IMG/VR virus record: IMGVR_UViG_3300004774_000478
Coordinates: 1-30,343 of that record
Reading direction: 5' to 3' (one strand)
Source: a virus
DNA length: 30,343 nucleotides
The first letter of the stretch is position 1, and each line of letters begins with the position of its first letter. Below the pieces are notes generated by a model. It had not been told where the DNA came from and made no database searches. It worked only from the letters and a program-made list of their open reading frames with translations. Both the position numbers and the translations under genes were made by a program. This document shows, piece after piece, positions 2,689 through 28,141 of the stretch.

Positions 2689-3252
2689 ATGTCCGAAAGT
2701 AGCGACGCAATCAGCTTCAAAGCCCTCCGCGAATACTGCAAAGAACTCGGTCTAACCTCCGTGACTATCGGGATGCCGGTCGATGAGATGATCGCTCAGG
2801 CCCGCAAGACCGAAAACCCACGTGCCTGGCTAGCCGCCCTCAGCAACGCCCCTCCGGAAGACGATGAAGATTCAATCCGTGAGGCCCATGCAGAAGCCGC
2901 GTATACCGACCCACCCGCCGTCGCCGCTTCGATCCCTTCATGCGATCTAGTTCCGCACGAGCCTGACCCTATCCCTCAGTCTATCCCCTTCACACTGATC
3001 GGATCGGACCTCATTGCCGTCGTCCTTCCGATCTCGCGTGAGCAGCCCGTCGGCTACCTGGAGCGGGAAATGCGGCTCGACCTGCGGCTCGGTCCCGCCG
3101 CCTCGATCGCCTTCCGCCGGCTCTGGAAAGCCCTCGACCAAAATAACACCCGGCTCAAGTGCGGAAAGCACGTCGGCTCATCCCGGGCCGACGTCGTCCG
3201 CTGGGTCTTCGAGCAGGTCGCCGACGCAATCGCAACCAAAGGCGGCGTCTAA
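2689..3252 (+). CDS. Hypothetical protein in packaging operon
   Basis: An unrecognised 187-residue protein. The N-terminal 55 residues are helical. An acidic, proline-rich linker follows (about 56-105), then a compact C-terminal domain (about 105-180) with the pattern LEREMRLDLRLGPAASIAFRRLW and a VGSSRADVVRWVFEQV helix. That tail could be a small nucleic-acid or partner-binding helical unit, but no family is identified. It starts 5 nt after the terminase stop, and its own stop overlaps the next start by one base (TAATG at 3250-3254). It is therefore in the same transcriptional and translational unit as the terminase and the ParB-like gene. GC-rich codon use matches its neighbours, which supports it as a real gene. 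Confidence 0.72.
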   Translation: MSESSDAISFKALREYCKELGLTSVTIGMPVDEMIAQARKTENPRAWLAALSNAPPEDDEDSIREAHAEAAYTDPPAVAASIPSCDLVPHEPDPIPQSIPFTLIGSDLIAVVLPISREQPVGYLEREMRLDLRLGPAASIAFRRLWKALDQNNTRLKCGKHVGSSRADVVRWVFEQVADAIATKGGV

Positions 3253-3896
3253 TGGCCAAGAAGTCGCCCATCCACTTAACGACCCACGATCCCCATTCCC
3301 ACATCGCCGAGCAGCTCCGCCCGCTCGCCGTGGCGATGGACCGAGTACATCTCGACCCCAAGAACGCCCGCGAGCACTCCGCCGCCAACCTCACGGCGAT
3401 CGCCGCCAGCCTCCGGGAGTTTGGCCAGGTCAAGCCGATTGTCGCTAACCGGCAGAATAGTCAGATCGAGGCCGGCAACGGCACCTACCTCGCTGCTCAG
3501 ACCCTCGGTTGGTCCACCATCGCCGTCGTCTGGGTCGATCACGATTCTCAGCAGCAACGCGGCTTCTCCCTCGCCGACAACCGAACCGCCGAACTGGCCA
3601 ACTGGAATCAGCAAGTACTCGACGAGCTGCTGGCGGAGGTGCGCGACGAGAATGCGGATCTCTACAGCGAGCTGCTGTTGGCCGATCTCGAACAGCCATC
3701 GGCGGCCCCAACGCCTGAGATCCAGGAGCTTGATGAGCCACTACCCGCGATCGAGGAAACTACCAGACACACTGTCGTCCTTCCCTACGAAGATGCCGAC
3801 GTGCCCAAACTCCTCCGCTTCCTCGGACTGCGTTCGCAAGAGAAGCTGCCTCCGGCCCTGGGCAAGGCATTGATGAACAGAATCCGCATCGCATGA
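3252..3896 (+). CDS. ParB-like (ParB/Srx N-terminal fold) protein
   Basis: A 214-residue protein whose first 120 residues fit the ParB N-terminal/sulfiredoxin fold. Visible blocks are NAREHS at 38-43, GQVKPIV at 58-64, EAGNGTYLAA at 73-82 (the ParB nucleotide-binding block, with GNGT where GEGR or GNHR is usual) and LADNRTAELANW at 107-118. There is no central HTH as in chromosomal ParB, so it is the short phage type. Such domains in phages have been linked by genome context to DNA methylases and base modification. The start at 3252 overlaps the preceding stop, and the stop overlaps the ATG of the Mom-like gene (ATGA at 3893). This operon suggests a role with the Mom-like enzyme rather than in partition. 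An in-frame ATG at 3159 lies inside the previous gene and was not used. Confidence 0.85.
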   Translation: MAKKSPIHLTTHDPHSHIAEQLRPLAVAMDRVHLDPKNAREHSAANLTAIAASLREFGQVKPIVANRQNSQIEAGNGTYLAAQTLGWSTIAVVWVDHDSQQQRGFSLADNRTAELANWNQQVLDELLAEVRDENADLYSELLLADLEQPSAAPTPEIQELDEPLPAIEETTRHTVVLPYEDADVPKLLRFLGLRSQEKLPPALGKALMNRIRIA

Positions 3897-4519
3897 GCGA
3901 ACTCAAGATCAATCTTCGCATTGCCCGAATCAGTAACGTGGATGCCGTCGCGTTCCTGAAGCGACATCATCCACTCGGTGCCGGCGGGGCCTTTAAGTTT
4001 GCCTTCGGAGCATTCTACTCGGGCCGTTGCGAGGGCGTGCTGACATTCGGCTCGCCCTCAACGAATCACGCCACTACGGCTCTCGCACTTCGACAGTGTG
4101 ATGTTCTTGAGCTTCGCAAAATGGTATTAACGGATGTGCCCCCAAAAAACTCGGAGTCAAGAGCCTTGGCGATCGCCGGCCGTCTTGTCCGCCAGGCCTA
4201 TCCACAGATATACTGTCTGCTAACCTATTGCGAGGGTGAGGAGGCCGCTGCCGCGTACCGGGGCAGCGGGTGGCAGGTGTTGAGCCGATCCGAGTATATT
4301 GCTGCGTACAAAATTGGCGGAAAATGGTACACTGCCCGCGATGCCCACCGATCACGAATTGCCGATCAGGCAACGGAAACGAAAACAGCCAAAAAACAAA
4401 AACTAATCCTGATTCTAAATGCGTGCATAGCTCAGAGAGTAGAGCACCTCGTTTCCAGCGAGGCGATGGCGGCGCAATCCCGACCTGCACGCTCCATTTC
4501 ACGCGAAATAATCGGCTAA
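3893..4519 (+). CDS. Mom-like GNAT-fold DNA modification protein
   Basis: The 208-residue ORF carries the signature I associate with phage Mu Mom and its relatives. It has GVLTFGSPS at 48-56, then LELRKMVL at 72-79, DVPPKNSESRALA at 81-93, a long helix to residue 103, and YRGSGWQVL at 122-130. Mom converts adenine to N6-(carbamoylmethyl)adenine, protecting phage DNA from restriction; the carbon donor is not settled as far as I know. The conserved domain ends near residue 150. The last 30 or so residues read through a tRNA-like gene (4421-4496), so this C-terminus may be non-functional extension. It is translationally coupled to the ParB-like gene (ATGA at 3893-3896). Another GNAT acetyltransferase is the main alternative. 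Confidence 0.78.
   Translation: MSELKINLRIARISNVDAVAFLKRHHPLGAGGAFKFAFGAFYSGRCEGVLTFGSPSTNHATTALALRQCDVLELRKMVLTDVPPKNSESRALAIAGRLVRQAYPQIYCLLTYCEGEEAAAAYRGSGWQVLSRSEYIAAYKIGGKWYTARDAHRSRIADQATETKTAKKQKLILILNACIAQRVEHLVSSEAMAAQSRPARSISREIIG
4421..4496 (+). tRNA. tRNA-Gly(UCC)-like gene with aberrant D and T arms
   Basis: A complete cloverleaf of 73 nt plus encoded CCA (4494-4496). The acceptor stem GCGTGCA/TGCACGC (4421-4427/4486-4492) pairs perfectly. The D stem is GCTC/GAGC (4430-4433/4442-4445) and the anticodon stem CCTCG/CGAGG (4447-4451/4459-4463). The loop TTTCCAG puts anticodon TCC at 4454-4456. The bacterial GlyRS identity set is present: U73, G1:C72, C2:G71, G3:C70, C35 and C36. 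Oddities are A instead of G18 in the D loop, a T loop CGCAATC lacking T54 and T55, and a T stem GGCGG/CCGACC that pairs only if A4483 bulges. It may be chargeable yet poor for EF-Tu and the ribosome. Decay of an ordinary phage tRNA is the alternative. Confidence 0.72.
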
Positions 4520-14303: not shown

Positions 14304-14741
14304 ATGTCCCTCGCAACGGTAGTAACCAAAAGCGTTTCCCAAAATGGGATTCCCAGCGTCAACATCACCAACACAATCACCGGTGCCCAGACGCCGCCGC
14401 TCGATGTAACGGTGCCCGTCGCCACGCCCCTCACCGTCAACGACGGAATCGGCGTGCTCTACTACGCGGCCCTCCAAATGCTCTACATCACGCCCGACAG
14501 CCTGGACGTGGATGTGAAGTTTTACGCCGCGACCGCCGCCGGAGGCGCACTCATCAACACGATCCACGTTCATGCCGGAGAGGCGTATGTGTGGGACTCC
14601 AACTCGGGCGGAACCAACCCGCTCGGCACCACAAATGCACTGTCGATGACAGTCACAGCAACCGCATTTGTCAAAGGCAACGCCAGCGGCGGAACCCCAA
14701 CCGGGACCGATGTCCACATCCGAACCTCGCTCTCCGCATAA
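14304..14741 (+). CDS. Small beta-rich tail protein, unknown
   Basis: The 145-residue protein is Thr/Ala/Val/Gly-rich with no hydrophobic segment. Strands such as PSVNITNTITG and LDVDVKFYAATAAGGALINTIHVH predict an Ig-like or jelly-roll fold. It has an SD (AGGAG) about 12 nt before the ATG. It lies between the probable tube protein and the chaperone pair, so it may decorate the tail tube or be a second tube subunit. I do not recognise a family. It precedes the next start by 6 nt, so it belongs to the same operon. Confidence 0.55.
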   Translation: MSLATVVTKSVSQNGIPSVNITNTITGAQTPPLDVTVPVATPLTVNDGIGVLYYAALQMLYITPDSLDVDVKFYAATAAGGALINTIHVHAGEAYVWDSNSGGTNPLGTTNALSMTVTATAFVKGNASGGTPTGTDVHIRTSLSA

Positions 14742-14747
14742 CTTCCT

Positions 14748-15485
14748 ATGTCAACGATCCTGTACTACCTACCCGAAGCCTCGACTGCCGCCGCCCAAAA
14801 GGGCTTGGCGGGACGCTTGGAAAGCGGCCAACACCAGCAGACGCTGAGCGCAGGCCCCGACGGCGGCCGGGGCACGATTATTGCCGCCTCCGACCGGATC
14901 GAGCCAGGCCGCATCCGCTACCAGCCGGCGGAGCAGACATGGCAGTCTGTCGATGGCGGGAAATACTGGATCGGGACCATTTCGGCCGAATCACCAACCC
15001 CTGACGACCTCATTCGCAAGAAGCCGCTGGCGGGGCACTGGATCGAACTCGCCGACGGTAAGCCGTGGCTCTGCCCCGTCGCTCGCGGCCAGGGCCAGGA
15101 GGACGGCCGGATGGTTTGGTATCACACCCTGCCCCGAGCGGTCGTGTTGCAGCCGAATGGCACCTGGGCGGAAGGGCCGGTCGTGTCACGCTGGGCACGA
15201 CTCTGGCAGTTGGCTGCCGATTACTGGAAGGCACGCGTCGGCTCCGCCTCGGAGGACGTCGTGGTCGGCGATGCCGTCACGTTTGATTTCCAAGCGGCCG
15301 CAGCGGCCGCCGTCGAATGCCTCGCGGTCAACTATCGTTTAACCGCCTTGGAGGTTTCGATGCTGGGCCTGCTCGATACCGACAGCCCCCGACAGATCCT
15401 CGACGCACTGATAGACTGGCCGACGCTCGTCGCACTTTCGGCCGAACTGCAAAAAAAAACGGAGTTGCTAGTTTCCGCACCATGA
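14748..15485 (+). CDS. Probable tail assembly chaperone (gpG-like)
   Basis: A 245-residue protein just upstream of the tape measure gene, where phages encode gpG-type chaperones that bind the tape measure and recruit tube subunits. The first 150 residues are beta-rich with many Trp and Gly (HWIELADGKPWLCPVARGQ), longer than ordinary gpG (140). The C-terminal 100 residues are helical (AAAAAAVECLAVNYRLTALEVSMLGLL, then DALIDWPTLVALSAELQ), as expected for the chaperone. The A9 run near the end and the downstream -1 ORF strongly suggest a G/GT-type frameshift. The gene could also carry an additional tail domain fused in front of the chaperone. Confidence 0.68.
   Translation: MSTILYYLPEASTAAAQKGLAGRLESGQHQQTLSAGPDGGRGTIIAASDRIEPGRIRYQPAEQTWQSVDGGKYWIGTISAESPTPDDLIRKKPLAGHWIELADGKPWLCPVARGQGQEDGRMVWYHTLPRAVVLQPNGTWAEGPVVSRWARLWQLAADYWKARVGSASEDVVVGDAVTFDFQAAAAAAVECLAVNYRLTALEVSMLGLLDTDSPRQILDALIDWPTLVALSAELQKKTELLVSAP
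15451..15459 (+). promoter_or_regulatory. Slippery A9 run: programmed -1 frameshift site
   Basis: Nine A residues contain the heptamer A_AAA_AAA in the frame of the 14748 gene (codons AAA AAA at 15453-15458). Slipping back one base continues in a frame open to 15565, just before the tape measure gene at 15572. The lambda G/GT pair uses a comparable slippery site. The frame and stop arrangement is seen directly; the shift itself is inferred. Confidence 0.72.
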
Positions 15486-15565
15486 CCCTCACGCGATGGG
15501 CACGCGGGCTTTTCCCCGCCTACCGCCCGACGCTTGCGGATCTATGGTGGCTCAACCAAGTGTAA
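15458..15565 (+). CDS. GT-like frameshift extension / 27-residue ORF
   Basis: This segment adds 35 residues to the chaperone after -1 slippage at the A9 run, giving a product of about 272 residues ending in LADLWWLNQV. It also contains an ATG at 15482 that overlaps the chaperone stop (ATGA) and would give a 27-residue peptide by coupled reinitiation. The basic, aromatic tail (RWARGLFPAYRP, then WW) fits a T-like domain that binds the tape measure or tube protein. The frameshift is the more likely use given phage precedent. The gap to the tape measure start is only 6 nt. Confidence 0.6.
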   Translation, partial: NGVASFRTMTLTRWARGLFPAYRPTLADLWWLNQV

Positions 15566-17648: not shown

Positions 17649-18011
17649 ATGCCCTCCATCAACACCATAGTCTGCTTCAGTATTATCGGCGTGATCCCCG
17701 CGCCGAAGATGAAGCTGTCTGTATGGACGGTGCCCGGCATCAATGGCTATGGAGCGCAGCAGCTCGGCTACCAGGACCAGCACTTCGAGGTGATTCTCGT
17801 TGGCTATGGGAGCAAGTCCGCCGCCCAGACGTGGAATACGCAAGTCTGCGCCTGCCAGGGAAAGTCGGTAACAATCGTCGATGATTTTGGCAAATCGAAT
17901 GAAAACTGCCTAGTAACCGAAGTCGGCCCCATGCGATTCGAGGCCGCGATCGCCGCCGGCGGAATCGCCGTCCGGGCGGAATGTAGCGTCAAGGGGGTTG
18001 TGAGAACATGA
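17649..18011 (+). CDS. Small tail protein after the tape measure
   Basis: A 120-residue protein in the position of distal-tail or minor tail proteins. It is beta-rich with a PGINGYGAQQLGYQDQHFEV segment and GKSVTIVDDFGKSNENCLVTEV, a pattern reminiscent of the small tail-tip proteins that carry a ring-forming beta-barrel. Cysteines sit in CAC and at NCLV. No SD is visible at the ATG, which follows the tape measure stop by 16 nt. Its stop overlaps the start of the sigma factor gene (ATGA at 18008), so the regulator is translationally coupled to a virion gene. The family is unknown. Confidence 0.6.
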   Translation: MPSINTIVCFSIIGVIPAPKMKLSVWTVPGINGYGAQQLGYQDQHFEVILVGYGSKSAAQTWNTQVCACQGKSVTIVDDFGKSNENCLVTEVGPMRFEAAIAAGGIAVRAECSVKGVVRT

Positions 18012-18526
18012 CCAACCACCTCCCGCTCGTGAAATCGATCGCCACGAAACTATGTCGCTATCTGCCTTCCACGCTCGACAAGGACGACCTAATCCAAGAG
18101 GGTGCTGTTGCGCTAGTGGAATGCCTGCGAAGTCACGACCCGGCCCGCGGAGCATTCAGCACCTACGCTTATCCGTTTATTCGTGGCGCGATGCTCGACA
18201 TCATTCGGAAGCAGGATTGGGCACCTCGATTGGAACGGCAGCGGAATCCAGATCGGCTAAAGAAGATGGTTTCCATGTTTGAACCGAACCAAAACGGCTC
18301 GACGCTAGCCGACGACCTGGCGGACGACGATCCGACATTGAAGCGATTCATTCATCGCGACGAGATAGGGTATAAACTGCGAAACGTAAACCAACCTGAC
18401 CGATGGCTACTGCAAGAGTATTACATGCAGGGCCGCACGCTAGCCGAGATAGGGTTAAAGCTCGGAGTAACTAAGCAGCGAATCGAACAGCGACACGCCA
18501 AAATAATGAAGGAACTGAGATCATGA
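18008..18526 (+). CDS. Sigma-70-family sigma factor
   Basis: The 172-residue protein has sigma region 2 at 1-70 (DLIQEGAVALVECL at 27-40, then the FSTYAYPFIRGAMLDIIRK block) and region 4 at about 115-171 (LAEIGLKLGVTKQRIEQRH, a helix-turn-helix). It lacks region 1.1 and most of region 3, like FliA-type or small phage sigma factors. It should bind host core RNA polymerase and direct it to particular phage or host promoters. It is coupled to the tail protein before it and to the PEP-CTERM gene after it (ATGA at 18523), so it would be made late. It may drive the last genes or keep late transcription on. Confidence 0.9.
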   Translation: MTNHLPLVKSIATKLCRYLPSTLDKDDLIQEGAVALVECLRSHDPARGAFSTYAYPFIRGAMLDIIRKQDWAPRLERQRNPDRLKKMVSMFEPNQNGSTLADDLADDDPTLKRFIHRDEIGYKLRNVNQPDRWLLQEYYMQGRTLAEIGLKLGVTKQRIEQRHAKIMKELRS

Positions 18527-20052
18527 AAAGATTCTTATTGTCACTCCTGATTCTTATGACCTTGGCCGCGACGGCCCATGCCCATATAGCCGTACTCGAC
18601 AACCCTGGTTATGCGTGGACGGGCGCATCTTCGACCATGGTAGTAATTTCCGATCCGATCACAATCACCACCGGTGCCAACGTGCTGGTACTCGATGTGG
18701 AGGCTTTCGGCAATTCCAACTGGACCGGATTCGCCTTCAACATCAACGGCACTCCTCTCGTGCAGGCCGCAGGCCAACTCACCACCGGAACCTATAAAAC
18801 GTCTAGCGCGATCTATTATTTCTACGATCCGCCCACAGGCAGCCTGACTCTCTCCGGCACGTTTGGCAGTGCGACAGCCGCCATACTCGATTACTACACG
18901 TTGTCGGGCGTCGATACGGCGATTGCCGTGGATGGCTACTCAACCAACGGCGGCAGCAATACCACGGCCAGCCTCACGGTATCGAACTCTGCCGGGGCAT
19001 TTGCGGCCGTCAACCAGGCGTTAAAGGCCGGAGCGGAAACCTACAGCTACGCGGCCACGCACGGCACGGCCAGCACGAATCCATCTGCCACGATCAATAA
19101 TCTGTCTGGCGGATCTGGCTACGTGTTGGGCCTGACGGCCGGTACGAACGCGATCACGGCCACGGTGGACCTGAATAACGGCACTACGCATCCCATGAGC
19201 GTGGCGGTATTCACGGCATCAATTCCGGCATCCGGTTCATCGCATTGGATCGCCGGCGATGGCAATTGGAGCGGAGGCTCTAATTGGGACAGTAGCCTCG
19301 TGCCGAACGGGTCGGGACAGACCGCGACATTTTCCCAGACGGGGGATCTCACAGAAACCATTACGATTGACGATTCGCCCACCGTTGGAACCCTCGCGCT
19401 AGGCTCTACCGCAGATTCCTCTACCGAGTACGTTTTTACCGGTGGGACGCTCACCCTTAGTACGTCGGCGAGTGGTGTGGTTTGCGTGAGCGGCGGGACT
19501 CAAACGATTATCAGTTCGATTATAGGAACTGGCAAAGTAATCCAAAACGGTTCGGGAACACTCATCCTCTCAGGCAGCAACAGCTACAGCGGCGGGACAT
19601 TCGTCAACGCTGGAATGATCGTTGCCACCTCAAGCGATGCCCTGCCCGATGACGGGAGCCTGACGATCGGTTCCGGCGGCACGTTGGTATTCGATCCGAG
19701 CTTTTCCCTATCTTCCTTCGCCGCGGCACCAGCATCGGTGAGCAGCGTCTCGCCGGTCCCTGAACCTTCATCCTTCGTAATGCTTTTTATATTTTTCTGT
19801 GGTCTCTCGCTCATGTTAGGAAGGCATATCATGCGTTTTCGGAATGCGTTTCTCGGTTGCGTTTTATCGTTGGCCCTCTCTTCGTGGGCGTGTGCCTGCG
19901 AGGAAGGAACCAGTCTCCCCGGTCCACCCGGCACGCCGGAGCCGGTAACGATGGGTCTGTTGGGTGCGGCGGCCCCCTGTCTACTGGCCTGCTGGTTGCG
20001 AAATAAGCGGCGATCCCGCCTCGATGCGATGGATGAGGCCAATGACGAATAA
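18523..20052 (+). CDS. Secreted PEP-CTERM protein with beta-strand repeats
   Basis: A 509-residue protein with a signal peptide (MKRFLLSLLILMTL, cleavage near AHA at 18-20) and a beta-rich body. Residues about 241-395 match autotransporter-associated beta-strand repeats (HWIAGDGNWSGGSNWD, then GTGKVIQNGSGTLILSGSNSYSGGT). A PEP-CTERM sorting signal follows at 411-440 (PVPEP, hydrophobic helix, then GRHIMRFR), recognised in hosts by exosortase. The frame then continues without a stop into a second signal-peptide-like and PEP-like unit (437-500). Such genes belong to Planctomycetes and Verrucomicrobia chromosomes, and it is unexpected in a phage tail cluster. It may alter the host surface, for example against superinfection. 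It is coupled to the sigma factor gene. Confidence 0.87.
   Translation: MKRFLLSLLILMTLAATAHAHIAVLDNPGYAWTGASSTMVVISDPITITTGANVLVLDVEAFGNSNWTGFAFNINGTPLVQAAGQLTTGTYKTSSAIYYFYDPPTGSLTLSGTFGSATAAILDYYTLSGVDTAIAVDGYSTNGGSNTTASLTVSNSAGAFAAVNQALKAGAETYSYAATHGTASTNPSATINNLSGGSGYVLGLTAGTNAITATVDLNNGTTHPMSVAVFTASIPASGSSHWIAGDGNWSGGSNWDSSLVPNGSGQTATFSQTGDLTETITIDDSPTVGTLALGSTADSSTEYVFTGGTLTLSTSASGVVCVSGGTQTIISSIIGTGKVIQNGSGTLILSGSNSYSGGTFVNAGMIVATSSDALPDDGSLTIGSGGTLVFDPSFSLSSFAAAPASVSSVSPVPEPSSFVMLFIFFCGLSLMLGRHIMRFRNAFLGCVLSLALSSWACACEEGTSLPGPPGTPEPVTMGLLGAAAPCLLACWLRNKRRSRLDAMDEANDE
19831..20052 (+). CDS. Possible nested 73-residue PEP-motif protein
   Basis: An in-frame ATG at 19831 has GGAAGG at 19818-19823, 7 nt upstream. 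It would make a 73-residue protein with its own signal-peptide-like N-terminus (MRFRNAFLGCVLSLALSS, then CACEE), a short Pro/Gly linker, a second PEP motif (TPEP), a hydrophobic segment and RNKRRSR. The arrangement duplicates a secretion and sorting unit at the end of the long protein. Either both proteins are made, or a stop codon between two once-separate genes was lost. A lipoprotein reading (Cys near residue 20) is possible but the lipobox is poor. Confidence 0.5.
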   Translation: MRFRNAFLGCVLSLALSSWACACEEGTSLPGPPGTPEPVTMGLLGAAAPCLLACWLRNKRRSRLDAMDEANDE

Positions 20053-20224
20053 CTTACTCGATCCACTCGCCGTGCCCGAAGTCTACGCACCCCGGCCCAA
20101 GAAGCGTCGTCAACGTGAGATGAGTGACGCGCAAGCCTACGTGATCATAGTCACCGTAGGATCTGTTTTTGGGGTTCTGATTGCGATTATTATCCTACCC
20201 CTATTGGCACTACTAGGAATATAA
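20042..20224 (+). CDS. Small one-TM membrane protein
   Basis: A 60-residue protein starting at ATG 20042, overlapping the PEP-CTERM gene by 11 nt. Its N-terminal half is polar with a basic cluster (PKKRRQRE, 20-26). A long hydrophobic segment follows (33-58, YVIIVTVGSVFGVLIAIIILPLLALL), so it should sit in the inner membrane with the N-terminus inside. Small single-span proteins in phages include holins, superinfection immunity proteins and modulators of secretion, but no motif decides. The overlap with the secreted protein suggests the two are made together. The fibre gene follows 3 nt after the stop. Confidence 0.62.
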   Translation: MTNNLLDPLAVPEVYAPRPKKRRQREMSDAQAYVIIVTVGSVFGVLIAIIILPLLALLGI

Positions 20225-20227
20225 AAA

Positions 20228-21982
20228 ATGCCCGCAGCACCTGCCGTTCTATTAAACTCCACAAACGTCATTAGCGACTACACCAGTCTGCTTGGGACGG
20301 CCTATACGGGTCTCACTGCTACGGGCGTGAGGTGGTTTGGCAATATCTCGACACCTGTTTCGATTGGTAGTTGTCTGTCGGCTGCGCTCGCAATGCGGAG
20401 TCTAATCGTATCCAGTAGCACGCGGGGCCAACAGGTCTACTTCCCCGAGGGTGGGAATCCACAGACGACCGATACGCTTTGGACAGGCACCGTGACGGCC
20501 AACGCACCTGGCGTGTTGGCATGGGCCAGGGCGAACAACAATATCACGGACAGCGGAACCCTCGGTAGTGCGGCCACCCTCGCCAGCGTATTAGCTCTCG
20601 CGAGCACGCCGGGGAGTTGGCCGGCGGGAGGTATGGTAGACGCGGCCGGGGCGCATCACCTGCTTGGCACCTATGGCCAGATCGACTGGCAAAACAAATC
20701 GGCCGTTAAGCTCGCCTTGCAGAATTTCAAGGCAATTTTTATCGTGCTCAATGGCACAACCCTTGTCACCGCGTCTACTAGCGGAAGTACGACCGTGGGA
20801 GCCAGGGACCGTTGCGTCTACGGCCAGGCGGCGGCAAACGGGGTGAACCATTGCTTTATCGTCTGCGATTATGGCACGGCCGCCCAACTCGCAACCCAAT
20901 ACGGTATCACGCTCCCCAGCGGACTCGCAACGGACACGTTTTGCCTAGGCGGTCTGTCCTGGGGAAAGTTCGTTATTCTCGATTGGCAATCGTGGCTAAA
21001 TCTCGGCTCCTATGCCTACGTCGTCACCACCGACGCCGACCGCGGCGATGCAGCGACATTCAACGCACAGGCACCCGCGATCTATGCCGGAATCACTGGG
21101 GCGAGCGGAATCAGCCCGATTGTCCTGGGGCCGTTTGTTTCCACCTCGTTCGCGCGGGTAACGACCGGCACGCCCGACTTGGCTGGCTATATCAACGGCG
21201 TGGCCCAGGGGCTTACTGGCCTGATTGGGGCCGTCGATTCGCTCGGATACGCGAAATATACCCCCAGTGCGGCCGACGTGTCGAACCTCGGGCAACTAAT
21301 CATTGACGCAACACTTACCGGAGCCGCTCCATTCTGCTGGCAAAAGCAGCTCACTTCGCAATCGGTAGGCAACGGCAACGCACTACAAAGCACTGTACGC
21401 GCCACACCTGCGACCGGGGCAAAGCAGTTCATTACCGACCTGCTTTACGCTACGGCATCCAGTAGCGGGCTGCTGACAAGCCTCGTTGGCCAGGTGGTCA
21501 CTTTCACCAGCGGTACGGCAATTGGAAAATCGTACCTCGTCAACGGCTACTCCAATGCAAGTAGTTACCTTTCGCTGAGCCTAGCAGGCGGTATGTCGCC
21601 GGCACCGACTGCAACCAACACGTTCATTCTCAGTAATGTCGCCACAGCCAACGCTCTTGCAACGCAGATCGCCACGCTGCCGGTCCTGGGGCAGATCATC
21701 GATCAAGTATCGGGCGACGGGTCGGCAATCATAACGACAGCGGGCGGGTTCAACGCAACCCTCGACCTCGACACGATCAGCATGACGCCCCCCACGTCGG
21801 CCACTGGTTTTGCCAACTGGACATTCCGGCAATTACTCGTCATGCTCGGCCGGCTCTTCTTTGGTCCCGCCATGGAAAACGGCAGCCAAAGAAAAACGTA
21901 CGCCAACGACGGCACGACGGTCATCACGAGGCAGACCATTGGCGACGATGGCACCACGCAGATACAGGGAAAGGTGCCATAA
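20228..21982 (+). CDS. Tail fibre with papain-like cysteine peptidase fold
   Basis: A 584-residue protein. The first 270 residues resemble a papain/C39-like domain: SIGSCLSAALAM puts the likely nucleophile at Cys49, GVNHCFIVCDYG gives His208, and GLSWGKFVILDW (242-253) matches the SWG segment seen in related domains. An Asn/Asp third residue is not clear, so activity is uncertain. The middle is Ser/Thr/Gly/Ala-rich and beta-predicted. The end carries a fibre-type motif (RKTYANDGTTVITRQ, then DGTTQIQG), common in phage tail fibre or upper baseplate proteins. It may trim surface proteins or peptidoglycan-linked peptides during adsorption. It follows the small membrane protein gene by 3 nt. Confidence 0.7.
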   Translation: MPAAPAVLLNSTNVISDYTSLLGTAYTGLTATGVRWFGNISTPVSIGSCLSAALAMRSLIVSSSTRGQQVYFPEGGNPQTTDTLWTGTVTANAPGVLAWARANNNITDSGTLGSAATLASVLALASTPGSWPAGGMVDAAGAHHLLGTYGQIDWQNKSAVKLALQNFKAIFIVLNGTTLVTASTSGSTTVGARDRCVYGQAAANGVNHCFIVCDYGTAAQLATQYGITLPSGLATDTFCLGGLSWGKFVILDWQSWLNLGSYAYVVTTDADRGDAATFNAQAPAIYAGITGASGISPIVLGPFVSTSFARVTTGTPDLAGYINGVAQGLTGLIGAVDSLGYAKYTPSAADVSNLGQLIIDATLTGAAPFCWQKQLTSQSVGNGNALQSTVRATPATGAKQFITDLLYATASSSGLLTSLVGQVVTFTSGTAIGKSYLVNGYSNASSYLSLSLAGGMSPAPTATNTFILSNVATANALATQIATLPVLGQIIDQVSGDGSAIITTAGGFNATLDLDTISMTPPTSATGFANWTFRQLLVMLGRLFFGPAMENGSQRKTYANDGTTVITRQTIGDDGTTQIQGKVP

Positions 21983-21988
21983 CAAACG

Positions 21989-22591
21989 ATGTCGCTCTCG
22001 CCCCTCGCATTCCTGCCGCCATTTCATCGGCCCTATCGCATGGCGACGTCTATCGTCATCGTGGCGATCGACGGCACGACCGAGGTGGAGGTGACGAGCG
22101 GGCTGAGGGGGACCGTCTATTATCATTGGTGGCTCAATGGTGCTTATCTTGGGCGGACCCTCGACGGCAGTCGCACTTTTCGACTGGACGAAGGCGAGGC
22201 CGCGAGGCTCGATGTTCACGACACCAAGGATCCGAATTACGATCCGGCGACCTTCGACTGCCAAGCGGCACCAGCTCGGCGACTAATCGCCTGGACTCGC
22301 AGCCTCGACCCCCTCTGCGCCTTCTATCGGATCGATCAGAAGAAGAATAACGAAGCATGGAAGAATGCGACATGGGTGCCGGCCGACGCACTCACATGGC
22401 AATATACATGGGAAAGCGACATCCTCGAAGACCTCCAAGACTACACCTGGCGGGTTGTTCCTCTCGACGCCGCCAGTAACGCAGGGACATCGATCACCCT
22501 GCCTACCGAGAAGATCGTCCGCACGCCCGACGCACCTAGATGGGGCTTTCATTTTAACCTCGTGACGCGTCTGGTACAGTTTTACAAATGA
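21989..22591 (+). CDS. FN3-like tail protein
   Basis: A 200-residue protein with two beta-sandwich-like parts. One holds YYHWWLNGAYLGRTLDGSRTFRLDEGE, with DVHDTKDPNYDP after it. The second (about 95-190) contains the fibronectin-III-like pattern LCAFYRIDQKKNNEAW, then LQDYTWRVVPLDAASNAGT, a common shape in tail fibres that bind surfaces. It ends with a strand (VTRLVQFYK). The start could also be an ATG at 22040 (MATSIVIV); 21989 is kept because it lies 6 nt after the upstream stop. The stop overlaps the next ATG (ATGA at 22588). I recognise the type as common in planctomycete-linked tail clusters, without a specific name. Confidence 0.65.
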   Translation: MSLSPLAFLPPFHRPYRMATSIVIVAIDGTTEVEVTSGLRGTVYYHWWLNGAYLGRTLDGSRTFRLDEGEAARLDVHDTKDPNYDPATFDCQAAPARRLIAWTRSLDPLCAFYRIDQKKNNEAWKNATWVPADALTWQYTWESDILEDLQDYTWRVVPLDAASNAGTSITLPTEKIVRTPDAPRWGFHFNLVTRLVQFYK

Positions 22592-25990: not shown

Positions 25991-28141
25991 ATGTACGAAC
26001 GCGAATCCGCTACCCTGATCTCTCCAGCCCCCGCGGTGCCCGTCGACATCCGGTACATCGAGCTGAAAACCGATATGACGGTTTTGACCAGCGATCCCCT
26101 CGCGGCCGTGAAGGGAGACGCCTATCTCCTCGACAAGAACGGCGTCCGCTACGATTCGAGCCTCGTCAAGGTCTGCAATCCGGCGGGAGTTCGACGAGTA
26201 TCGCTCGGGTCCGACAGCATCGGCAATGATGCCGCCGGCAGTCCTCGTCGCGGGGCGTTTGGCCAGGCTCGCCTTAACCCACGCCGCAATGTATTAGAGA
26301 TCGTGTCGATCCAACAGCTTGCCGAGGTGGTTTATGGCACCATCGTCAACGCCTTCGTTGCGACCGACTCGACCGTCCTGCTACGCGATGTCAAAACGTC
26401 CGGGCAGGTTTATGATCAGATCCCGCCCCTCAGCTCTGGCGGCTACCTGAGCGTGACGAACGTCAATAAGTTGGTGGGGATTCAGGACGGGGCCGCCATG
26501 GCTGTCCTTGATATCGGCACAAATAGTTACCGTCTCGTCTGTTGTCCGGCACCCAATACAACCCCGAATGATCTCACTGTCGTCACGGACGTCAGCTTTG
26601 ATATAGCGACCGGAGCCTGGCGAAAAAAGACCCGCACTATATATGCTCTAACGAACATACTAGGCACCGAATCAAGCTGGACTCCCTATGTTGCTGGCCT
26701 ACAAGCCGGCTCGTCTTACCAGCGCGACCCCGTGACAGTAACGGTGACCCCCTCATCGGGTCTCGTCTACGGAAAGCCCTGCCGAATAACCATGGCCGTC
26801 GCCCCCGTATCAGGCACAGGCACCGCCGCGGTAACAGGTTATCGGGAGATTATGATCGACGATACCTACGTGGACGCATCGCAGTTGATCACAGACCCCA
26901 ATAGCTGGCAAACTGGATACTACATGACCGCTGGAACGCACTCCCTGGTAGGCGTTTATGGCGGCGACGCCAATTACAACGGCAACACATCTTCCCAACA
27001 GTCCGTATCCGTTGCCAAAGCAACCCCTTCCCTTAGTGAAACGCACTCGCCGACCGGTGACACCTTTGAATATGGCGCGCAAGTAACCTGGAGTGTGGTG
27101 CTGAATCCTGGCGACATCGATCTAACGCAAGGGAGCCGAAACGGAAACATAGGCGTCAACTCTATTCCATCAGGCAACGTCACCATGACTTGCGATGGGG
27201 TATCCTTCGGCCATGCGGTTAAGTCCATAACGTTCAATGGTCATGCGGAATTCAAATTTGATATCGACCACCCGCTCGGGGCAGGCTCGCGGACCATCGT
27301 CTTCACTTACGAAGGGGACACGAATTACAACTCGTGCTCTCTATCGAAGACCCTTTCGATCACGAAGAAAACGCTGACCTACACGACTCCCAACAAGAGC
27401 AAAATCTACGGCACTCCGAATCCTGACCTGGCTGGCACCTGGAGCGGCTGGGTCGTCGGATCTTTAGACACTCCGGCCAGCCTGGGCGGGAACGGGATAC
27501 CGACGACCACAACCACCGCAACTACAACATCGCCCGCCAGTGCCGATTCAAGCCAGTATCCGATCACGACGGTAGCAGGGCCATGTTCGTCCTACAACTA
27601 CGATCTCCATTTCGTGAATTCCATTTTGACGATCACAAAGGCAAACCTGGTCGTCACCGCCAACGCACTCTCCATGGATTACGGAGATCCCATGCCGAGC
27701 TACCCCGGCTCGATCTCGGGAATCCAATCGGGCGATAACTCGAAGATCCACCTTGACCTGACCTGCGACTATACGCCGACTTCGGAGGCAAAGTGGTACA
27801 CAATCCATGCCAACGTGACGGGTGATGAAAACGTTCTGGATAGTTACACCATCGAAAGGCACGACTCAACGTTCTTGGTCAGGAAAGCCAACCTCACGGT
27901 GACAGCCAACGACCAGACCATGACGCAAGGAGGATCGGTCCCCGCTATCTCCGCGAGTGACGGAACGGTTTCCGGTACCAGAAACTCCGACGACATCCAA
28001 TTCGCCGGCTCTTGCGATACGGACGGGAAAGAAGCTGGCCTATTCGTCATTAACGCTTCCATCTCCAGTAAAGCCTACTGGGAGCTGCGATACAGCATCC
28101 TCTATGTTTCTGGAATCCTCACCGTCAACGCAGCACCATGA
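25991..28141 (+). CDS. Ig-like and MBG-repeat adhesin-like tail protein
   Basis: The 716-residue protein has an N-terminal part (1-245) that probably attaches to the tail tip, then a run of adhesin-type domains. Two Ig-like (Big_3-type) units lie at about 247-344 and 345-458; each has the YxGDxNYN signature (VYGGDANYNG, TYEGDTNYNS). Two or three MBG-type units follow at about 460-555, 556-637 and 638-716 (TITKANLVVTANALSMDYGD and VRKANLTVTANDQTM). These domains occur in large bacterial surface adhesins, so the protein is a likely receptor-binding fibre whose modules may have come from host adhesins. The next gene starts with an ATGA overlap at 28138. Confidence 0.78.
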   Translation: MYERESATLISPAPAVPVDIRYIELKTDMTVLTSDPLAAVKGDAYLLDKNGVRYDSSLVKVCNPAGVRRVSLGSDSIGNDAAGSPRRGAFGQARLNPRRNVLEIVSIQQLAEVVYGTIVNAFVATDSTVLLRDVKTSGQVYDQIPPLSSGGYLSVTNVNKLVGIQDGAAMAVLDIGTNSYRLVCCPAPNTTPNDLTVVTDVSFDIATGAWRKKTRTIYALTNILGTESSWTPYVAGLQAGSSYQRDPVTVTVTPSSGLVYGKPCRITMAVAPVSGTGTAAVTGYREIMIDDTYVDASQLITDPNSWQTGYYMTAGTHSLVGVYGGDANYNGNTSSQQSVSVAKATPSLSETHSPTGDTFEYGAQVTWSVVLNPGDIDLTQGSRNGNIGVNSIPSGNVTMTCDGVSFGHAVKSITFNGHAEFKFDIDHPLGAGSRTIVFTYEGDTNYNSCSLSKTLSITKKTLTYTTPNKSKIYGTPNPDLAGTWSGWVVGSLDTPASLGGNGIPTTTTTATTTSPASADSSQYPITTVAGPCSSYNYDLHFVNSILTITKANLVVTANALSMDYGDPMPSYPGSISGIQSGDNSKIHLDLTCDYTPTSEAKWYTIHANVTGDENVLDSYTIERHDSTFLVRKANLTVTANDQTMTQGGSVPAISASDGTVSGTRNSDDIQFAGSCDTDGKEAGLFVINASISSKAYWELRYSILYVSGILTVNAAP

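Follow-up and report, generated by a model that had tools for sequence, protein, structure and literature searches.

A phage-borne gene with host-type PEP-CTERM sorting signals in a cargo slot of a tailed phage, probably of Planctomycetota

Some phage morons alter the surface of the host cell, as in superinfection exclusion and lysogenic conversion. A different route to the cell surface is taken by the PEP-CTERM/exosortase (EpsH) substrates, which, in the excerpted text of their original description, have a signal-peptide-like start, a C-terminal PEP with a helix and a basic cluster, and no enzyme domain; in the model given there, the inner membrane has the PEP at its outer face and the basic cluster on the inside (PMC1569441). 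A membrane helix between the signal peptide and the PEP-CTERM is rare in the survey of the same excerpt, and exceptions exist (PMC1569441). The functions of PEP-CTERM proteins have been established in few cases, one being floc formation in Zoogloea, according to the excerpt of a second source (PMC9012009). For viruses, an excerpted report on a hot-spring virus community places 13 host-derived proteins in TIGR03118, with a putative exosortase-interaction domain (PMC11003980), and our literature search, which was partly over-broad, found no paper that appears to have phage-coded PEP-CTERM proteins as its subject.

The DNA analysed here (the window) is a metagenomic contig of 30,343 bases, the whole of IMG/VR record IMGVR_UViG_3300004774_000478. 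A standard module for packaging and head formation makes up the left part (gpA-type terminase, ParB-like protein, Mom-like protein, portal, ClpP-like protease and major head protein), and the contig is a genuine tailed phage. The downstream genes give few family matches, yet their order is kept in related phages, so that this part fits a tail region. At 3159-4519 a gene for a Mom-like DNA modification protein (PF25680, E 1.3e-22) comes after that for a ParB-like protein, a pair with which the phage may modify its own DNA. Near the tail genes, 25991-28141 encodes a 716-aa protein with MBG_2 and Big_3_5 Ig-like domains, the first 114 aa of which resemble a protein of the closest relative. The gene under study has the following parts.

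18523-20052, + strand: PEP-CTERM ORF, 509 aa (sequence, Pfam and NCBIfam matches)
18523-18585, + strand: signal-peptide-like N-terminus, aa 1-21 (sequence; hydropathy peak at aa 4-20)
18586-19230, + strand: N-terminal region, predicted to be exported, aa 22-236 (without a Pfam or NCBIfam match)
19240-19707, + strand: beta-strand-repeat module over roughly aa 240-395, including one PATR repeat (aa 340-364; PF12951)
19753-19830, + strand: internal PEP-CTERM-like segment of PEP, helix and basic residues, aa 411-436 (PF07589, sub-threshold; structural scan)
19831-20052, + strand: possible separate 73-aa product with a second signal-peptide-like helix and the PEP-CTERM (in-frame ATG at 19831; upstream context)
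19933-20013, + strand: C-terminal PEP-CTERM domain, aa 471-497 (TIGR02595)

An earlier note on this DNA had given the coordinates and frame of the ORF correctly and had read its start as a signal peptide, in keeping with the sequence MKRFLLSLLILMTLAATAHA, where a hydrophobic peak follows MKR (mean hydropathy of 1.99 over aa 4-20). The sorting signal that it named is likewise present: the domain at aa 471-497 of 509 scores 21.1 bits with TIGR02595 against a cut-off of 16 (E 2.5e-5 for the record). As for the beta-strand repeats, the PATR match at aa 340-364 exceeds both cut-offs (PF12951, E 2e-10, 41 bits versus 27; TIGR02601, 39 bits versus 19.85), but the plural does not stand, one repeat being recognised. 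The protein resembles the exosortase substrates of the excerpted description (PMC1569441) in its signal-peptide-like start, in its C-terminal PEP, helix and basic cluster, and in that no enzyme domain was recognised in it. It differs from them in being phage-encoded beside a sigma factor, and in holding a second PEP-CTERM-like segment and helix within one frame. With the PATR (TIGR02601) autotransporter-associated repeat proteins of Planctomycetota it shares the central module, over the cut-offs, and it departs from these in its single recognised repeat and in an N-terminal 215 aa that are nearly without relatives. For the module, 13 of 392 Planctomycetota genomes gave matches (E<=1e-5), none of them outside aa 191-401; the N-terminal 215-aa region has weak matches in 3 of the 392 at E<=0.01. 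Similarity searches with the whole protein returned no relatives in viral contigs, phage records or plasmid records, and PADLOC gave no match. The structure prediction (mean pLDDT 41.5) was too poor for use.

The earlier note had passed over the internal segment, as well as the in-frame ATG and the second signal-peptide-like helix that come after it. This segment, with its PEP at 19759, has the same layout as the C-terminal one, that is, PEP, hydrophobic helix and basic residues. It is sub-threshold in both curated libraries: the best stretch for PF07589 is aa 411-429, the whole protein reaching 17.9 bits, under the gathering score of 20.7, and the segment alone scores 13.5 bits, below the cut-off. 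A scan of the six frames of the window for PEP, helix and basic tail finds exactly two places, the segments at aa 411-436 and aa 471-497, while 200 codon-shuffled windows together gave the pattern 5 times and 236,886 bases from related phages did not give it at all. Two hydrophobic segments, aa 417-433 and aa 443-459, lie between the two ends of the ORF, the second being a signal-peptide-like helix, and with these the protein departs from the usual helix-free layout of PEP-CTERM substrates, which is not a strict criterion in the excerpted survey (PMC1569441). That layout would be restored only if two products were made or if the protein were cut at the first PEP.

The in-frame ATG at 19831 is preceded by an SD-like AGGAAGG, 6 bases upstream. 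Together with the signal-peptide-like helix between the two segments, this start makes the frame look as if one PEP-CTERM protein were succeeded by a small one of 73 aa, the latter either fused to the former or made from an internal start. Two separate proteins, from adjacent PEP-CTERM genes that lost the stop codon between them or from initiation at 19831, we hold to be a serious possibility that falls somewhat short of even. The AGGAAGG, the second signal-peptide-like helix and the second PEP-CTERM speak for it, as does the finding that, among the TIGR02595 matches listed for five genomes with terminase relatives, no same-strand pair lies within 177 bases, the spacing seen here, a comparison in which weak second copies would escape the threshold used. 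On the other side, the frame is open throughout, and the fused form would likewise satisfy the positive-inside rule. Two products would be a variant of the explanation that we prefer below, not its opposite.

The gene lies in the following surroundings.

17649-18011, + strand: conserved left flank of the cargo slot (homologues in 8 of nine tail loci)
18008-18526, + strand: phage-type sigma factor with regions 2 and 4 (PF04542, E 1.2e-17; PF04545, E 1.4e-8; phrog_351 sigma factor, E 6.2e-30)
20042-20224, + strand: small one-helix membrane protein, 60 aa, start predicted (hydropathy, one strong hydrophobic segment)
20228-21982, + strand: 584-aa protein, presumed fibre-like cargo (tblastn to the slot protein of the closest relative)
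21989-22591, + strand: conserved right flank of the cargo slot (homologues in 8 of nine tail loci)

The sigma factor just upstream and the small membrane protein just downstream, both pointed out in the earlier note, are confirmed, the latter as an ORF. The stop of the former and the start of the PEP-CTERM ORF overlap by 4 bases, ATGA, and the ORF in turn overlaps the predicted start of the 60-aa protein. Overlapping in this way, the sigma gene and the ORF may well be transcribed together, and we infer an operon. A promoter and terminator scan at the PEP-CTERM gene stayed at background, no better than shuffles. The sigma factor also matches MzaA, a sigma-like protein of a defence system; this similarity, the one that the defence-gene library gave, probably reflects no more than the shared sigma fold; the 60-aa protein has no PADLOC match. 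The 584-aa protein is 42% identical over 69 aa (tblastn, E 9e-4) to a 995-aa protein that occupies this slot in the closest relative. A papain-like identity, suggested for it by eye, was dropped for want of evidence, and its structure prediction (mean pLDDT 32.4) was too poor for use.

The description of these genes as a tail cluster is borne out by position and synteny but not by family, the neighbouring genes having no significant PHROG tail match; single-sequence searches with three neighbouring proteins gave no relatives. The tail-region location, beside a small membrane protein and a fibre-like protein, and the beta-helix-type repeat would also agree with a particle adhesin or spike, or with a membrane-active lysis helper, in place of a coat for the host. 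The 509-aa protein, however, has no lysis or tail family match, and an export signal with two PEP-CTERM segments would make assembly into virions in the cytoplasm unlikely; we regard a virion or lysis part as improbable.

Relatives of the phage were reached through the terminase and then through a tail-gene alignment, which gave nine tail loci. Both flanking genes are present in seven of these; the other two are without a match to one flank. In 6 of the 7 two-flank relatives the flank matches lie 23-200 bases apart, with no cargo between them. The seventh is the closest relative (terminase 75% identical), and its slot is filled by 3.4 kb of other cargo, including the 995-aa protein. The PEP-CTERM domain occurs in 0 of the 26 other related records, and so in this phage alone among 27, many of which are fragments. 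Carried by one phage and absent from relatives with conserved flanks, as befits a moron, the gene is cargo as judged from sequence comparison. Two related phages encode short proteins (L031, 17378-17713; L229, 15482-15679) which, by eye, we take to resemble CsrA. The closest relative, L031, also has minus-strand frames in two overlapping pieces at 14546-15509, presumably resembling an insertion-sequence transposase (by eye).

Joining of phage and host sequence in assembly might be suspected in a metagenomic contig with a host-like gene. We consider such a chimera very improbable given the overlap with the upstream gene, the conserved genes in order on both sides, and the different cargo that the closest relative has in the same slot. 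The absence of the domain from the 26 other records may point to a recent, neutral pick-up of host DNA, functionless in the phage. The host-like repeat module agrees with this, as does the codon use of the 509-aa ORF, which scores lowest (least typical) of all listed genes longer than 100 aa, a figure slightly biased by a reference set that excluded the ORF itself. Against it stand the intact 509-aa frame and the ATGA overlap with the sigma gene, to which the recurrence described below is to be added.

We examined the host group through the terminase. A scan of bacterial genomes with a five-member alignment confirmed 127 relatives, of which 80 were kept. The best four are from Planctomycetota (44, 42, 40 and 37% identity), and the fifth-best is from a Methylococcaceae MAG (38%). 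Among the four, a complete Planctomycetales chromosome (G027) has terminase, portal, protease and capsid homologues in order, and a related phage has probably integrated there. Planctomycetota are thus probably the host group, and the phage host itself is inferred to be a planctomycete. TIGR02595 matches exceed the cut-off in 3 of 5 genomes with terminase relatives, with 72 in one Planctomycetales MAG; G027 has no TIGR02595 match at E<=0.01. Exosortase (PF09721) was found in 61 of the 149 Planctomycetota genomes searched, which means that the predicted host group can have the machinery, and an exosortase in the phage host is plausible. Among the 20 larger ORFs of the window that were scanned, no Pfam match to an exosortase was found.

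Since the 509-aa protein has no close relatives, viral contigs were searched for the motif itself, with a degenerate pattern for VPEP[AS][TS]LALL. The pattern matched 69 viral contigs, in frame in all 69 (F being allowed where the pattern allows it), and in 67 of them the fetched stretch has a stop <=40 aa from the motif. Of these 67, a crude signal-peptide test accepts 47. The TIGR02595 cut-off was exceeded by 10 of 10 representatives. A packaging, head or tail homologue is present in 35 of the 69 fetched stretches, with queries from the representatives or the window, so that loci of representatives match themselves. Placements include the following.

L155: PEP-CTERM gene between portal and major head protein
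L199 and L182: PEP-CTERM gene just ahead of terminase and portal
L206: PEP-CTERM gene adjoining the terminase
L198: PEP-CTERM gene adjoining the major head protein
L191: PEP-CTERM gene between portal and SbcCD-type genes
L150: PEP-CTERM gene less than 5 kb away from tail fibre and tape measure genes

Terminase and portal families differ among these phages. When clustered without the PEP tail, 65 sequences fall into groups of 27, 8, 6, 3, 2, 2 and 2 and 15 singletons; the largest has 43 members if the shared tail is included, and the 27 were used. Within this group dN/dS is <1 in all 292 usable pairs (median 0.41), 59 of 351 pairs having been excluded for a dS outside 0.1-1.5 or a short alignment; the pairs are not independent, and some contigs are near-identical. 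These values indicate purifying selection on one phage PEP-CTERM family, though not that of the window gene. Some of the phage proteins, though not the window protein, match the flocculation-associated PepA (NF033554), at <=45 bits, short of the 80-bit cut-off. Relatives of the L191 protein occur in 5 of 199 Planctomycetota genomes, and a protein of viral contig L259 is 37% identical to it. These two homologous PEP-CTERM proteins (L191, 8612-9337; L259, 8580-9431) are rich in repeats of the form DxSxVxIxGG; five neighbouring proteins tested in L259 have no PHROG match. A second, looser pattern (49 contigs) gave many short chance frames, and the 20 contigs chosen from it by eye were left out of the argument.

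Four phage PEP-CTERM proteins, that of the window and three others, have 0 matches in 50,697 isolated-phage records. Hosts of this kind may be rare among those of cultured phages, or some of the contigs may hold host DNA; for the loci named above, the position among packaging genes argues against the latter. The earlier note had named, as grounds for giving up its idea, a lack of conservation in related phages together with an origin as chance host DNA. The first is what we find (0 of 26 records; slot empty in 6 of 7), but the second does not agree with an intact ORF whose start overlaps the upstream gene and whose kind recurs near packaging genes in unrelated phages. With this recurrence, and with one other family under purifying selection, a neutral pick-up appears rather unlikely.

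We prefer, at somewhat better than even confidence for the whole, the explanation that the gene is a host-type moron in a Planctomycetota phage whose exosortase-sorted product alters the host surface. The ORF with its two PEP-CTERM segments, the phage context and cargo position of the gene, and the recurrence of the class are observed; to these the explanation adds a probable host group and a predicted operon, export and exosortase cleavage. A host-type cargo gene would have been inserted between two conserved tail-region genes and would be expressed together with the phage sigma factor, the small membrane protein and the fibre-like protein. The 509-aa product would be exported by the general secretion route of the host, and its C-terminal helices would hold it in the inner membrane, basic tails inside. 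The passenger would then lie outside, the first helix crossing in and the second out, a short loop bearing the second PEP, and the last helix crossing in. A host exosortase could cut at either PEP and so release the passenger to the outer envelope or anchor it there, and the surface of the infected or lysogenic cell would thereby be changed.

Placement of a protein on the host surface, as the earlier note proposed, agrees with a phage-borne gene, host-type signals and the sigma overlap; the placement itself is a prediction, and it is the natural reading of host-type export and sorting signals in a phage whose host group can have exosortase. The window gene is like the surface-altering morons in its cargo position and its predicted envelope-directed product, and unlike them in that the product carries a host exosortase sorting signal. 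Surface alteration of some kind is the most likely effect, and whether it blocks later phages or changes adhesion or aggregation is a guess. Superinfection exclusion and lysis timing are possible candidate roles that no specific finding singles out, the former, taken as the specific effect, being unlikely.

The gene, with its two sorting tags in one frame, is one of a wider group of genes for putative exosortase substrates carried by phages, a group that includes the conserved family weakly related to PepA. The recurrence of tagged genes in unrelated viruses suggests that some viruses may redecorate the surface of infected cells. Tentatively, and with the balance still against so broad a claim, tailed phages of exosortase-bearing bacteria may generally carry exosortase-substrate morons and recoat infected or lysogenic cells, the window gene being one instance. 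Such recoating would alter phage adsorption, or how far the cells stick or flocculate. Should it be a repeated habit of phages to carry exosortase substrates, the pathway would be a ground of phage-host conflict, phages would supply small natural substrates with which to test it, and there would be a phage route to altered aggregation of environmental bacteria.
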